From the NCBI GenBank assembly GCA_019677205.1, contig JAAMXY010000572.1, positions 1-23,385 on the forward strand: 23,385 bases of DNA, in the 5' to 3' direction. The notes under the pieces were generated by a model. That model did not search any database. It saw only the letters and a program-made list of their open reading frames with translations, and was not told the DNA's origin. Both the position numbers and the translations under genes were made by a program. Positions 1,427 through 17,285 of the stretch are shown piece by piece. Source of the stretch: Pinguiococcus pyrenoidosus (taxonomy: Eukaryota; Sar; Pinguiophyceae; Pinguiochrysidales; Pinguiochrysidaceae). Position 1 is the first letter of the stretch. Every line of letters starts with the position of its first letter.

Positions 1427-4400
1427 TCAAACCAGGGGATGCGACCGATCACTTTCGATGCTTCTACTCGACTGTACTGATGCCCTCCTCGCTTGGAAGG
1501 CCTGTGCAAGGAGCTGCCCTGGAAGGTTCAGGGACTTGCGCATGCCTGAGAGGACCGAGGGTCGAGACGCGGTTGACATTCGTCGATCCTCCGACACCTC
1601 GGTGCGCTCGTCTTCGAGCCCCTCCTCTCCAAGAATCTTGTCAAAAAATTGGTGACCCAGACTCGCCTGGTACAAAGGGATTCTGTTCGCGCGGACAAGC
1701 TCGGATCCGGAAGACAGGGTTCTGCGCTGCTCGGTATCGTTCGGATTCCACACCGCCTCCACGTACTGCAGAATCGTTGCCGTCGGAGTGTGGGTGATAA
1801 GGCCGTTCTTCGTTAGGAAGTCCTCAAACAGAATTCGAGCGTCCCGCTCGGTCATCGTGTTGCAGATCTCCTTTAGACTGTCCGTGCCGAGCAAGTACAG
1901 CTCCACGGGGGAGGCGGCCTCGATCGTCTCCTGCCGCACACCCGATTTTGAGACCAGGGCGTACTCGCCGAAGTGGTTTCCTTTCCGGAGAAGGTTCCCC
2001 AGGATTTCGATCTTTCGCTGCACCAGGTGAGCGTCTCTCCGCCCATCGGAGTCGAGCACGGAGAGGTCGGGAGGAAGGGAGACGCGGACGTGCCCGGCCC
2101 CGATGAAGTAGATGTCCCACCCCACGTCGCCCGCTTCGTAGATGAAGGTATACTGGGACGAGGCTTGCGTCTTGAGGGCCATCGCGATCCTCTTCCTCGT
2201 CATTTCCTTCCGGTCGTCGAGCACGGGGACGGCATCCAAGATTCGCTTGCGCACCGCGAACGCCAGGTCAAGGCGCAAGGGCTTCGGAAGATCCTGCATG
2301 ATCTCTTTGTCGTCCAGCAGATGCGAGCGCTCGTAGACATGCTTGTAGTGCCTCAGGATCGTTTGCTCAAGGTCCCGGGGGAACTTTCGGTACCGCATGT
2401 ACTCCTCCAATGACTGCATCTTCAGCTTGAAGGCGCTGCTGCCGGTGGAATCGACGCGCTGAAACAAGATTTTAAAGGCACCGATGAGCGCCGCGAAGAC
2501 ACAGGCAGCCAGCGTCATCACGAACAGCTGAAAGGTCGTCTCCCCAACGTTCCTGGGAATGATGTCTCCATATCCCACTGACGACATCGTCGTCAGGGTG
2601 AAGTACAACGACCGAGTGTAGCACTCCCCCGCGGTCATTGTCGTGACACAGATGTCGTGAGCGCCGCGATCGTCGTCGAAGGTCGCCAATCCGGCTTTCA
2701 CCGCCCACGTGGTTTGGCTGCTCCTCTCCAGGAACCGATGGATCATGAACCACGTGCAGGCGACCCAATGGTTGGCGAAGACAAAGACGGCCAGAACCTT
2801 CGCTATCAAGCTGATCGAAGACGGGATGCGGACCTGGTGGAAGTGAAGGTCCTTCTCAATGGCACGGACTTTGTCTGGAATCTCCAAGAGGCGAACGAAG
2901 CGAAAGAGCCGGAGACAGAAGTACGCCACGTTTCGCTGCCCCCTTGACGCCATCAGGCAGAACGAGCCGGTGGGAAACAAGCCAACTAGATCAAGAGCTC
3001 TCCTGCTCTTCATGTAGTGCTCTCGGACGGACGATACTTCGTTGACGATGAAGCCCTTCTCCACGAAGGGGAAGAACCTGAAGTGCAGGAAAGCGTCGAG
3101 GAGCAGGAGTCCGTCCGCAACCAGATTGAAGGTCACGGGGATCCCGACTGCGCTGTTCCGGCGCCCGTCGATGTAGAACGCGGCGTAGTACGGCGTGGCG
3201 ATGCCAATGTGGACCATCGTGAGCAACACGACGACGTTCCAAGCGCAACGAAAGGAGCTGTGGGGCTGCAGAATCTTTAGGTCGATCCTTTCCCGCATGT
3301 TGGACTGCTGGCTCGCGGCGACCATGCGGATCCGACCGAGCTTCTGCGCAGGATCGTTTGCGTTCACCAGGTTGGTCTCGAAGATTTCGTACCGGTGCTG
3401 AAGCTCCTGGACGGCGGCGAACACCTTCCCTCGCAAAACCGGGTGGTCGCGCAGCACCTCCTCCACGGCGCTGTCTTCCAAGGTGTAGACTTCCGTGAAG
3501 TCCACGCATCGCACCGTAGCGCGGCGCTTCTCCCTGGCTAGGACTGCGGTCTCACCGAAGAAGACGCCTTCGTGAAGCGTGGACATCACGGTGACATCAT
3601 CCGGCGCGATCACTTCCACTCGCCCTTTCACCAGGAAGTACATCTCTCGCCCGATCTCGCCGGCGGTGATCACGTTGTCGTGGTTGTTGTAGATTTCAGG
3701 GACCAAGCGGATTGCCAGCTCCTCGACGAGCTCGTCCGAGAGACTCGCGAAGATGGGGCACTTGGCGATGTACTGCACCCGGCCGTTCTTTGATATCTCC
3801 ATCCGTAAGGTGTACGGCAGGTCGTCAAAGTGCGACTGCTCCCCGAAGGACCCCTGTCCTGCGATCATAAGGTTCATGAAGTCGTTCACCCTGGTCTGAA
3901 GCTGTCGAGGGACTTTGTGCGTGTGCATGTAGGCCTTGAGCGCTTCTGCCCTCTCTGTACTTGCGGCCTCCTCGGCATTCAAGTTCGCGAGGATGTTCGC
4001 AACGTTGCCGATGACCACGGCCGAGACCGTCATCCCGATGATGAGCCAGAACAGCACGTAGACGGTTTCGCCAACGTTCGCCGGGACGACGTCCCCGAGG
4101 ACAACGACCAACAGCGTAGGCGCCGCCCAGTAGATGGCCCGAAGGTAGCGCTCCGAGACGCTACCGCCATCGACGGGAAGATGACCCAGCTCGATTTGGA
4201 GTTGCACCCAGGACTCGTGGTATCTGCAAAAGGCCCACTCCGTGATCTCAAAGGCCTGTCCGGCCTGAAGGGTACTTCTTGAAGCCTGGTCGCACTTGTC
4301 CTAAGAGGGGCGAACACTGTCATCCCAAGGACCGAGCGTGCTCAAACGTAGTTGCTACTTACGTGAATGTGCCGGAAGCGCGCAAGCATGTACAGTCCGC

Positions 4401-7400
4401 AGGCCGCCCAGTGCGCAACCATCCACACGCAGAAGAGAAGGCCGAGGAGCTGGACAAGACTCGCCGCCACGGTGGTGTGCTCAAGCAGTCTTTCCAAGTT
4501 CTGCCAGCCCTTGCGTGCGCGTGGAACCCGCAAGAGCTTTGGCACTCGCAAGAAGGCGATCGCAAGCCACCGACTCCCGGGGCTCACAGCGAGCGCCAGT
4601 ATCTCCAAAGGAACGCACGAAATCGCAGCGAGGTAGAATCCATTCTGTCGAAAGTTGTCCCATATGGCGACTTGATCGAAGTAGAGCTCCCCTTCGTAGA
4701 GGAAGGCGAAGTGCCTTGATCGCAGGTACAAATCGACGAAGAAGACGCCATCGACGACCCAGTCTAGGTAGAGGAAGACCGCGACGTACTCAAAAGCAAT
4801 GCGATAGGGGATGTAGAAGGTCTGGTACACCACGCAGAGGCAAATCAAGGATGTCCAGCCCTGTTGCACTCGTCCGTCGGGCAAGAAGACGGTCGGCTGG
4901 TTCCCCCCGTCCTGATCCTCGCCAGCTGTCGCCCTTTGCACGGGTGCCATCACTGGTTCGAGATAGGCAGACCATGGCCTTCTTTCGTTCATTTTGTGAA
5001 AGTTCGCCCGCACCCGCTCATTGTGGCGCATCTTGGTCGACAGCGTCTCGCTCAGAGAGCGGTACATCTCGGTGCTCCAGTTCGGGAACATGTCCATAAC
5101 CTCTTGGATGCACGAAAGGGTTATCAGAAAGCAGTCGCAGTAGGACCTGGCCGTCACGCTTGCCGTGCGGACAGCTCGGGGCTTGAGCAAGATTGACTCG
5201 CCGAAGTAGTCGCCATCGTGGAGCGTGGCGTACGCCACCTGTTGATCTTCGCTGCTCACGACCAAGAAGCCCCTCTCAACCAGGTAAAGCTCCTTGCCAA
5301 CCTCTCCGGAGCGGATGACCACGTCCCCGGGCAGAAAGACGCGGGGGACCAGTCTGGATGCCAGGGCCTGTCTGACGCCCTCCTCGCAATCGCGAAGGAA
5401 CGGAATGCTCTTCAGTGCCGCTCCCGTGACAGCGCTGGCAACGTTTCTCCTCAGGGGTGGAGGCAGCTCTTTCAGGACCGCGGCCTCATCCACAACGCCT
5501 TGACGACTCCACATGTAGTCGGCGTAGTTAAGCACTTTCTCCATGAGAGCTGGACTGAAGTCCTCTCGCACCATCGCGCGTCGTATGATTCGCATCCGCT
5601 GACGGTACTGACGTGCGTTCTTCGTCAACTTCTCCATCAGCGATGCCAAGGCTCCAACCATTGCCGGGAGGAGAATGGCTCCCACGAACACGATAACTGT
5701 TGCCATTCCCGACTCCACGGGGTTCGAGGAGGGCGGTACGATGTCGCCGTAGCCAACGGTGGACATGCCGACCATGGCAAAGTATAGAGCCCGAAGATAA
5801 ACGACGTAGCCAACATCCTGGTCTTGCCCGAAGAAGGACGTGCACGGGGAGCAGCGATCAGCAGCGCTCCGATCGGCTTGGATCCACGTATCCATCCCCT
5901 GATCGAAGAGGCCGCTCTTAATGCTAAACTCCGATGCACAGATGAAGAGGCACCCAGCCCAATGGCACAGGAGTAGCATGGCAGCGTTGTACTCCAGAAA
6001 GCGACCGAGCTCGATGGTATACCAACCAAAGCGTTGGCGGAGTCGCTTCTGTACCTCCCTCGTGGACATGACGAGCTGTCCCAGCCTCAGCAGCTTGGGC
6101 AAGCGTACGGCTGTGAAGACTGCCGGGCGGGAATCAACGGCAAGGAGAAGCTCCCAGGGGAACACTTCAAAGAGCTCCTTCCAAAGGCATCTCTTGGTCA
6201 AGAAGCGCTCCTTGATCCTCTCGGTGTCGTAGATGACGATGCCGTCCTCCAGGTACATGAAGTGCTGATACTCCAGGTATATGTGCAGCGCCCACGCTGC
6301 ATCTACGAGCCACGTAAAGCAGAGTAGAGTAAGACGCGTGTACATCACCGGAGCAAACATGGCTGCCAGGTGGATAGGCATGGTGATCGCGTAGAAGGCG
6401 GCGCACACGAAAATCAGCACATCCCACCACTGCCGGAAGCTTGACTGCGGAATGAAGTGCCGCCTCCGCGAAGTCGAGAAAGATCTGATCGTATCTGAGT
6501 GCTCCGATATCACCCGCGACCCCGCGCGACTCCGGAGCCGCGCCAGCTTCAAGCGCTTTGACGACAACTGCACATCGCCCTTGAAGGATTTCTTGTACAT
6601 GCGGGCAATCTCCGCCTGCGAGCATTGCGAAAGCATGACGCTTTGGAACGCGAGAGCAGGGAGGAGAAGGACCTCGGCGTAGGTCTTCGCCCGGATCGAG
6701 TAGTCGCATCGGACGTCCTCGTGGAACAAGCATTCGTCCCCGTAGTGATCCCCCGAATTCATGCCCTGGATGATGCGACTGTTTGGGTCATCGCTTTCGT
6801 TGATGTTCACCTCGCCCCGCTGCACCAGGAGGACTCCGCGGATCTGTTCGCCTTTGCCCATGACGACATCCCCGGGGCTGTAGAGGTGCTGATCCAGCCT
6901 GCTTGTCAGAGCATTCAGGAAGGCAAAGTTCAGTCCTCGGAGCACGGGCAGCTGCCGCAGCAGGTCTCGCCTCATGACGGAAGAGACTTGGATCTGCAGC
7001 GTTCTCGGCAGCTCATTGATGAATTTCCTCTCGTCGACGCCTCGTAAAAGGAACCACCTGTGCTCATAGAAGCTGACCAGCTTGGCCTTGAGCCATTGTG
7101 GGAGCTTCCGGTAAGTTATGTACTTGTCAAGTCTGTCGAGTCTCTCGTAAAACGTCGTCTGCGCGGCGTCAAAATTGGTGATCATGATCGTCAGATTCGC
7201 AATGGCCGCGCAGCACATGGCAACCCCGACGTGCATGAGAATCATGGTCACCCGCGTCTCCGGCAGCGAGATGGGGACGATGTCACCGAAGCCAGTGGTG
7301 CACATGGTGACGAAGGCCCAGTAGATCGCGCGCCCGTAGGTGTGGACCAGGGAATAGCTTAGCTCATTACTTGCGCTGTCAAGAAGGCCGTCCTGCTCAA

Positions 7401-8914
7401 GCCAGTTTCCCTACAGGGCGCAGCGTCGTAAGCTTCCAAGAGCTCAAAAATGGATGGGAGGGCCTTCTGCGGAGCGCACCTGCGAAGTTCGCGAGCCGTT
7501 GAGACCAACACGGAAGAAGAGGCACGCGGCCCAGTGGCCAAACATGGCCAAGGCACAGTAGAACTTGACCATCCGCTGCACGCCGAGGTGTCGAACAAGG
7601 TTCTTGTCCTCCAGTAAAGCGAATATCTCGTCGGTGAAAGCCATCATGCGGAAGTACCACAGCATCCGATTGAGCTTGTACAGGATGATCGCTCGCTCGC
7701 CTGCTGCATACGCGAAGACGTCGAAATGCAGCACCGCCGCAACTTCTAGGCAAAGTATGGCGACATCCGACGGGTTGCGTCGGATTTCTAAGCCAGAAAA
7801 TTCCCGAGACCTCTTCTTGCGAAGAAAACCCGCAGCGCGTCGCAACCAGATGCGTCCGTAAGCTCGGAAGATCTTCCGTTGCGTGTACAACACGCAGGCG
7901 ATCAAGAAGGTCTCGGCTACCGTGTCCAGCGCGATGAAGGCGGCGTACCTCTCCTCAAAGGAGTACTTGGGGAAGAAGGCGATTCGCAGAGGGATCGTGA
8001 TCAGGAGATATGTCGCGCAGGCCAGTCGCAGGGACACCCACAGAAGATCCGCGTTCCAATTGTCCTTTTGGGTATCAGCCACAAGGACACCTTCTGTGAG
8101 CTCGCGCTGCAGGGGCACGATCTTGTTGGAACGGAAAAACGACTTGCGCGCTCCACGCTTTCCTTGCGTTTGGGTGGTGCGGCGGCGACCCCAGATCAGC
8201 TGGCTCCAGCGCCGTATGTCCCGGTCAGGTGCAAGGAGGCTCGGCGTCCTATGCAGACTCCTCGTCCTCTCGAAGGCCGAAGAGCTCGTGGCCTTTCGCA
8301 GGGGAGGAACCGAGCTCTGCTCTCTCGCAAGCAACCCACCGCCTGTGCCGCTGAACGGTGCTTTGTTGTCCGTGCTGCTCGCGGCGCTCCCAAAACTCAC
8401 GTCGTTGAAGCTGGCCGTACGCATCAGCAGCTCTCGGGGCCCTCCTGATCCCCCCTTTAGGGGCGCAGCGTGCTCCTCTGGCCTTGCCTGCGCCATGTTC
8501 CGCCACCTCCGTCTCTTTGCGCGCTTTGCGGCGGCGGACGAGGACGAGTTCGCACGATCCACAGCATTAATCCAGTGTTCAGTAGCGGGGTCGTCAGCGG
8601 TTGCAATCGAGCTCTGAGGAAGTGTGAGGCTTAGCTCGGAAACCATCGTCGTGGCAGCAAACCAAGAAGCTTACCATGCTTTCCAGCGTGGCGTCTCCAT
8701 GGCTCTTCTGGCCCTTGCTGATCTGTGGGACCGCTTGGTCGTTCGCCTTGCCTGCGTCCCTGTGTGGCAAGTCGCCCAAATCCTCGAGGCTCGGTATCGA
8801 CGGCCTCTCGTGCAGGCTCAGCACGGATATGGTCGGCGAATCCGGCACCCGCGTTGGAAGCGTATCCCCCAGGGCATCAACGTCCAACGCGGTCGCCGGA
8901 GCGTCGTCCGCCAT
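1427..8914 (-). CDS. four-repeat (pseudotetrameric) cyclic-nucleotide-gated channel, CNGK-like
   Basis: Exons, in transcript order, are 8914-8675, 8613-7480, 7410-4363 and 4300-1427. Three phase-0 introns of 61, 69 and 62 nt join them into about 2431 residues. The start ATG sits in CACCATGGCG, a Kozak-like context. After a Ser/Arg-rich N terminus (about 1-260), the chain repeats four times the order S1-S4, S5, pore, S6, C-linker, cyclic-nucleotide-binding domain. The selectivity filters are TTGFGD (496-501), TVGYGD (1009-1014), VVVLGD (1539-1544) and SVGYGD (2048-2053). The cNMP phosphate-cassette regions lie near 677, 1191, 1719 and 2248. Cassettes II (YFGE with RTASV) and III (FFGE with RRATV) look competent; I and IV are altered. 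One chain could form a whole pore, as in animal CNGK channels. Both termini carry basophilic-kinase motifs (RTASF, RKATS, RRMS, RRAS). The protein would sit in the plasma or ciliary membrane and is probably K+-selective, but ion and ligand are inferred. Repeat architecture is firm. Confidence 0.93.

Positions 8915-13708: not shown

Positions 13709-17285
<3,577 letters not shown>

Follow-up and report, generated by a model that had tools for sequence, protein, structure and literature searches.

Can a whole channel of the cyclic nucleotide-gated kind be carried on a single polypeptide in a protist and, if so, is it the animal channel CNGK over again or something of a different make? The question is raised by a stretch of 23,385 nucleotides from Pinguiococcus pyrenoidosus (assembly GCA_019677205.1, contig JAAMXY010000572.1, positions 1 to 23,385), which we call the window and which is contig C235 of a 23.7-Mb assembly in 768 contigs. 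On its minus strand, between 1427 and 8914, lies a gene for four successive units, each with six transmembrane helices (6TM), a pore and a cyclic nucleotide-binding domain (CNBD). We think that its product is probably a one-chain, pseudo-tetrameric cation channel with CNBDs, one of a family conserved in stramenopiles.

Four units in one reading frame

The first step is the gene itself. The joined minus-strand frame runs for 2431 codons to a single terminal stop, through four exons, all of a length divisible by 3, and three phase-0 introns with GT-AG borders, just as the sequence-only reading of this DNA had proposed. Nothing was found that would part the units: the joined frame is open, one intron falls in the N-terminus, the other two lie inside units I and III, and none stands between units. 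The protein was divided by hand into four pieces before comparison with Pfam, and each piece matches Ion_trans, Ion_trans_2 and cNMP_binding above the cut-offs (12 of 12 matches), so that the claim of four S1-S6, pore and CNBD units in succession on one chain in a protist genome also holds. The weakest of the 12 is Ion_trans_2 in unit III (23.3 bits against a cut-off of 22.5), and the Ion_trans match of unit I starts only at profile position 70. The quarters are far from copies of one another, unit II being 25-26% identical to the other three. The gene, its units and their selectivity filters, the last read directly from the sequence, are laid out as follows.

8675..8914, minus strand: exon 1, residues 1-80, N-terminus, with a presumed start codon and no aligning relative
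8614..8674, minus strand: intron 1, 61 nucleotides, GT-AG, phase 0, placed by sequence signals
7480..8613, minus strand: exon 2, residues 81-458, S1 to S5 of unit I
7411..7479, minus strand: intron 2, 69 nucleotides, GT-AG, phase 0, with in-frame stops
4363..7410, minus strand: exon 3, residues 459-1474, pore and CNBD of unit I, all of unit II, S1-S5 of unit III
4301..4362, minus strand: intron 3, 62 nucleotides, GT-AG, phase 0
1427..4300, minus strand: exon 4, residues 1475-2431 and the stop; turret, pore and CNBD of unit III, all of unit IV, C-terminal tail
6565..8061, minus strand: unit I, residues 265-740, across intron 2; 6TM, C-linker, degenerate CNBD
5023..6447, minus strand: unit II, residues 780-1254
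3380..4878, minus strand: unit III, residues 1303-1781, across intron 3; long turret, non-K+ filter, intact CNBD cassette
1790..3262, minus strand: unit IV, residues 1821-2311
7282..7299, minus strand: filter I, T-T-G-F-G-D
5743..5760, minus strand: filter II, T-V-G-Y-G-D
4091..4108, minus strand: filter III, V-V-V-L-G-D in place of the K+ signature
2564..2581, minus strand: filter IV, S-V-G-Y-G-D

Intron 2 must be spliced out, because it holds in-frame stops, although its 69 nucleotides would keep the frame. Across junctions 2 and 3 the window protein can be aligned with P0010, P0011, P0015, P0001 and the paralogue C264 of the same genome, in which the frame is uninterrupted; turret lengths at both junctions differ among these relatives, most of all at or after junction 2. 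At intron 1 none of the five relatives aligns, and the first 250 or so residues, with the start codon, are without homology support.

That the four units form one chain is also seen in relatives. C264 has all four in a single uninterrupted frame of 2236 codons. Peptide P0013 of Proboscia alata (MMETSP0174) holds part of unit I and the whole of units II-IV on one chain, and peptide P0026 of Leptocylindrus danicus (MMETSP) a partial unit followed by III and IV; from their MMETSP names we take both to be derived from transcriptomes.

A stramenopile family and its deviant third quarter

How widely is this architecture shared? With unit II as the query, 40 of 1736 candidate proteins passed at E <= 0.001, and the full-length window protein gave seven matches among 7992 scored candidates, together 45 proteins. 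To these we added the window protein and C264 and removed the eight weakest matches (P0005-P0007 of the full-length search and P0041-P0045 of the unit-II search), which leaves a family of 39. This limit is our own cut, units covering 300 model positions or fewer are left out of all counts, and both searches were capped, word-based and seeded with the window protein, so that they lean to close relatives and do not imply absence of the family from other groups. Holders with names are Triparma verrucosa (Bolidophyceae), the diatoms Proboscia and Leptocylindrus, and the labyrinthulomycete Hondaea fermentalgiana, their proteins going by such database names as hypothetical protein (Triparma), cyclic nucleotide-gated cation channel (Hondaea) and CRP-like cAMP-binding protein (JGI). 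One member, P0003, is alone among the 45 in having an RGS domain (PF00615) in its precomputed annotation. The idea of a lone oddity is thus rejected: the "copy" of which the sequence-only reading spoke is real and is not single, since the family numbers 39 proteins and this very genome encodes two of them, besides a four-unit gene of another kind, C382.

Maximum likelihood applied to 65 units over 453 columns gives one clade at 100/100 for each of the repeats, I (9 rows), II (10), III (10) and IV (10), and every unit of the window protein sits in the clade of its own number. The Hondaea unit is the first branch in clades I, II and IV, and in III is paired with P0003 (81/75). The same four clades return at 0.998-1.0 when the units are freshly aligned with MAFFT, 25 columns around the filter are removed and the tree is built with FastTree. 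Since each repeat clade unites Hondaea with ochrophytes, the one-chain form predates the split between labyrinthulomycetes and ochrophytes, given vertical descent. In a tree of concatenated units (31 proteins) the window protein joins P0010 and C264 (99) within a group (80) that adjoins the Triparma and Proboscia groups, and the Triparma group adjoins the one that contains Proboscia; this placement is as expected of vertical descent in an ochrophyte. The window's genome has 29 matches to light-harvesting genes. Judged from these sequences, the four-unit form looks old within stramenopiles, unless horizontal transfer spread it. The earlier alternative, that the layout is "either ancient or arose again", is thereby narrowed for stramenopiles, if not with respect to animal CNGK.

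The quarters of the family are specialised, and the third has the odd pore. Its filter has G-x-G in 0 of 38 units (VVVIGD in 35, VIVIGD in one, TVVIGD in C264, VVVLGD in the window protein). G-x-G is found in all 23 filters I (TTGFGD 13, TVGLGD 4, TVGYGD 4, TTGYGD 2), in 32 of 33 filters II and in 32 of 32 filters IV. The first filter glycine of K+ channels has a left-handed backbone form, and a valine in its place should for that reason disturb that quarter of the filter. Turret III, counted from the S5 histidine to the filter, has a median of 81 residues (38 units, range 60-143), and the medians elsewhere are 65 for I (22 units), 63 for II (32) and 69 for IV (31), with ranges that overlap that of III. 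Before the P-T-L of loop III a W, a GG and a Y-x-R-x-x-x-W are invariant in ten sequences. The CNBDs differ in their turn: FGE and the arginine of the phosphate-binding cassette are both kept in all 36 scorable units III, in 24 of 32 units II and 23 of 31 units IV, and in none of 21 units I, where FGE alone survives in three; there the cassette alignment may be one residue off, and nearby arginines are possible. We also looked for a foreign source of loop III. A viral or prokaryotic origin was set aside, none of 48 pattern matches in IMG/VR and 15 in a prokaryotic genome set proving a relative by tblastn, in searches from which records near the window's genome may have been excluded.

Gating, selectivity and the comparison with CNGK

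What might such a protein do? A single polypeptide would close one pore. Binding of cyclic nucleotide, above all at CNBD III and also at II and IV, would move the C-linkers and so open the gate at S6. The S4 stretches, with few charges, would confer weak voltage dependence, as in CNG channels: over the same aligned 16 residues, arginine and lysine number 2, 3, 5 and 4 in units I-IV of the window protein, 4 in CNGA1 and 6 in KCNH2, and so few charges do suggest weak voltage sensing. A filter of three K+-type loops and one V-V-V-I-G-D should be permeable to K+, asymmetric and probably of reduced K+ selectivity. The window's genome has seven matches to nucleotide-cyclase domains, and one 1279-codon frame (G000:C347:22577-25021) carries two such domains and is a candidate source of the ligand. 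It has four matches to radial spoke protein 3 as well, so that a flagellum is presumably present at some stage; a flagellar role for the channel would be a guess by analogy with CNGK.

Modelled with AlphaFold from 23 sequences (mean pLDDT 71.8), exon 4 shows helices where the pore helix and S6 of unit III and the complete unit IV are expected. The model's best matches in the PDB are chains of HCN, CNG, EAG and plant K+ (GORK) channels, with TMt up to 0.81 for CNGA3/CNGB3 over an aligned part that is not specified.

Several points weigh against the reading of the protein as a cyclic nucleotide-gated cation channel of a specialised family. Its identity as a channel is predicted from DNA, and the predicted structure is limited to exon 4, with a pTM of 0.53. 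A filter in which one quarter is aberrant does not by itself reveal the selectivity of the pore. The score of 0 in 38 for filter III follows in part from our family cut, because the eight proteins left out lack a loop of the PTL-V type; their units nearest to III by identity are P0005_5 (TSGWGD) and P0007_1 (TLGYGD). Clade III of the unit tree is independent of that cut, and there all ten units are without G-x-G, in a clade that stands without the filter columns. Finally, intact cassettes are no proof of gating by cyclic nucleotides, because zebrafish CNGK has four CNBDs and is nonetheless gated by pH (PMC4749565).

This last point leads to the alternative that survives best, namely that the channel is as we describe it and its CNBDs no longer bind cyclic nucleotides, the channel being gated, like zebrafish CNGK or KCNH, by voltage, pH or some other ligand. 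There are published precedents (PMC4749565), and none of the 21 scorable copies of CNBD I has FGE together with the arginine. Against this, the same residues are kept throughout unit III and in most scorable units II and IV, and because of this ligand binding seems to be retained; we regard such a loss as unlikely, while giving it real weight.

Is it, then, a CNGK? CNGK, the best-known precedent for a one-chain form, was rightly named as such from the start, and we compare it here through published descriptions. It occurs in animals and choanoflagellates (PMC4749565, PMC7576140), its pores have a GYG or GFG motif (PMC4749565), the sea urchin channel is opened by a single cGMP at the third CNBD (PMC4749565), its four domains are nearly alike without obvious specialisation (PMC6259924), and its repeats pair 1 with 3 and 2 with 4 (PMC7576140). 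The window protein is like it in having four 6TM-CNBD units on one chain, and the family is like the sea urchin channel, in which CNBD III is functional, in keeping the CNBD III cassette throughout. Unlike CNGK, the window protein has G(Y/F)G in units I, II and IV only and quarters as unlike as unit II and the other three, and its family belongs to the stramenopiles and has a longer turret III and a degenerate CNBD I. Because pore loop III lacks the K+ signature, we do not regard the family as simply CNGK-like.

Even so, the two might be orthologous, through a four-unit ancestor that existed before opisthokonts and stramenopiles parted, losses elsewhere and a later change of pore III. The identical layout, the presence of CNGK in choanoflagellates (PMC4749565, PMC7576140) and the gating role of CNBD III in the sea urchin (PMC4749565), set beside the cassette kept here in 36 of 36, all fit such a history, and the 1-3, 2-4 pairing is not rejected by our data. 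Nor is it favoured: in topology tests on 64 units none of the six repeat pairings was rejected or preferred. The 64-unit quick tree joins I with III (44) and II with IV (74), neither pair starred, and gives the other four pairs p-AU values of 0.55-0.76; a 69-unit quick tree has II with IV at 91 without I with III, the careful 65-unit tree has I with III at 82/73 without II with IV, and FastTree without the filter columns has II with IV at 0.77 without I with III. Since the tests decide nothing and the trees disagree, we make no claim on the order of duplication. Filter III and turret III, moreover, depart from the reported G(Y/F)G design, and neither the full-length nor the unit-II search, both word-based, gave a match named CNGK, most matches being nameless. 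No CNGK is among the best 60 of 81 matches of a whole-protein PDB search. A composite HCN1 and CNGA1 query gave 570 matches, of which the best 120 are HCN by name or at 78-89% identity over half of the query, CNGKs being possible among the remaining 450. Orthology with CNGK is to our minds improbable, somewhat more so than the loss of nucleotide binding.

Weakest of all is the suggestion that two or more neighbouring genes were wrongly joined and are produced as separate proteins or messages, which we reject as exceedingly improbable: the gene model is known from DNA and has three introns in it, but these are short (61-69 nucleotides) and never lie between units, the frames of C264 and C382 each span four units, the transcriptome peptides P0013 and P0026 hold units on one chain, and all 39 family proteins agree with the order I-II-III-IV, with four units of more than 300 model positions each present in 17 of them.

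Larger relatives and wider meaning

Several other arrangements of the same building blocks are found close by, and one-, two- and four-unit CNBD forms occur together in this one genome. C382 (L002:279-6941) has its units in one frame of 2221 codons, the first without a start; its filters are G-Y-G in all four, the last being G-Y-G-N, and FGE with the arginine is found in none of three aligned CNBDs, unit 4 having no letters there. The two-unit genes are C246, C47 and C364 (L003:2257-5712, L004:1747-5961 and L005 (C364)), whose first units group together in the 65-unit tree (100/99), as do the second ones (100/97), both clades lying apart from those of the family. Three metagenomic proteins (source jgi) are longer still: P0008 (3834 residues) has seven units, P0009 (4174) eight, the first partial, and P0012 (3590) seven, the first partial. 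In each the last four are family units I-IV, and the whole units upstream group in register with units 2, 3 and 4 of C382 (99/98, 100/99 and 100/98; FastTree 0.998-1.0); unit 1 of C382 is unplaced in the tree, and the partial first units of P0009 and P0012 are outside it. Since P0009 and P0012 are close kin, we count these proteins as about two cases. They were read as proteins only, and an error of assembly or gene calling may lie behind them, though all three agree. The two four-unit proteins, separate genes here and one chain there, are thereby hinted to act together. A further separate four-unit CNBD protein, P0041 of Saprolegnia parasitica, has no recognisable G(Y/F)GD filter, and its units pair 1 with 3 (99/97) and 2 with 4 (96/95), on long branches, in the pattern published for CNGK.

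From all this we tentatively put forward an account that we consider quite possible, if short of probable: the four-unit chain would be an independent stramenopile invention in which the quarters became specialised, with a fixed 3+1 pore and a master ligand site in repeat III, and which in some lineages was fused to a block of the C382 type, giving a chain of eight units and 48 helices that might be two channels or a double channel.

Where does this channel stand among those already known? The two-repeat tandem CNBD channels of SAR protists (2020, PMC7576140) are likewise built of tandem 6TM-CNBD units, but have two rather than four; the published oomycete and dinoflagellate sequences of this kind are outside our tree. 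Heteromeric CNGA/CNGB channels also form one ring of unlike subunits with few charges in S4, and CNG chains are among the best fold matches of exon 4; they consist, however, of four separate chains, and the T-I-G-E filter of CNGA1 is unlike those of the window channel. HCN1 has an S4 of 28 residues with seven arginines or lysines, as against 16 residues with two to five in the window units in the same alignment. Cav, Nav and NALCN channels are likewise single chains with 24 transmembrane helices and specialised, asymmetric repeats and turrets (PMC6259924). The window protein differs from Cav and Nav in having a CNBD in all four units. Cav, Nav and NALCN have no CNBD, and their filters are different. 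Two further genes here, C411 and C716, match Ion_trans four times within one frame, with no CNBD match, and we read them as Cav-like.

The rest of the window holds other genes. On the plus strand, 233-697 and 915-1286 match the ribosomal protein L1/L10e family in two frames and are probably exons of one gene, and 13743-14240 and 14392-14931 match Hsp70 in two frames, probably again as exons; on the minus strand, 14732-15247 and 16010-17149 match PF10712, which may be a shadow of the Hsp70 gene.

In the 2020 survey, tandem channels are not identified in labyrinthulomycetes or diatoms (PMC7576140). The main text of a paper on diatom Ca2+ channels, in the portion at hand, is without the words CNBD, cyclic nucleotide or repeat (PMC11085791), and one on Phytophthora zoospore membranes mentions the CNBD once in such a portion, for comparison (PMC12223298). 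No title or abstract on four-unit CNBD channels of stramenopiles was among the matches listed in a search to which subscription journals and preprints were outside scope.

What does the finding mean? A four-unit CNBD channel, published for animals and choanoflagellates, now has a family in diatoms and labyrinthulomycetes, whose origin, with vertical descent, is no later than their common ancestor, and the design is not merely a speciality of animal sperm. It provides a second case, beside Cav and Nav, in which four units were chained and labour was then divided among them, and thus a natural experiment on what drives channels towards the single-chain form. With a loop of non-K+ type conserved in the same quarter of every pore, it also allows one to ask directly how many loops with G(Y/F)G are required for a selectivity filter.

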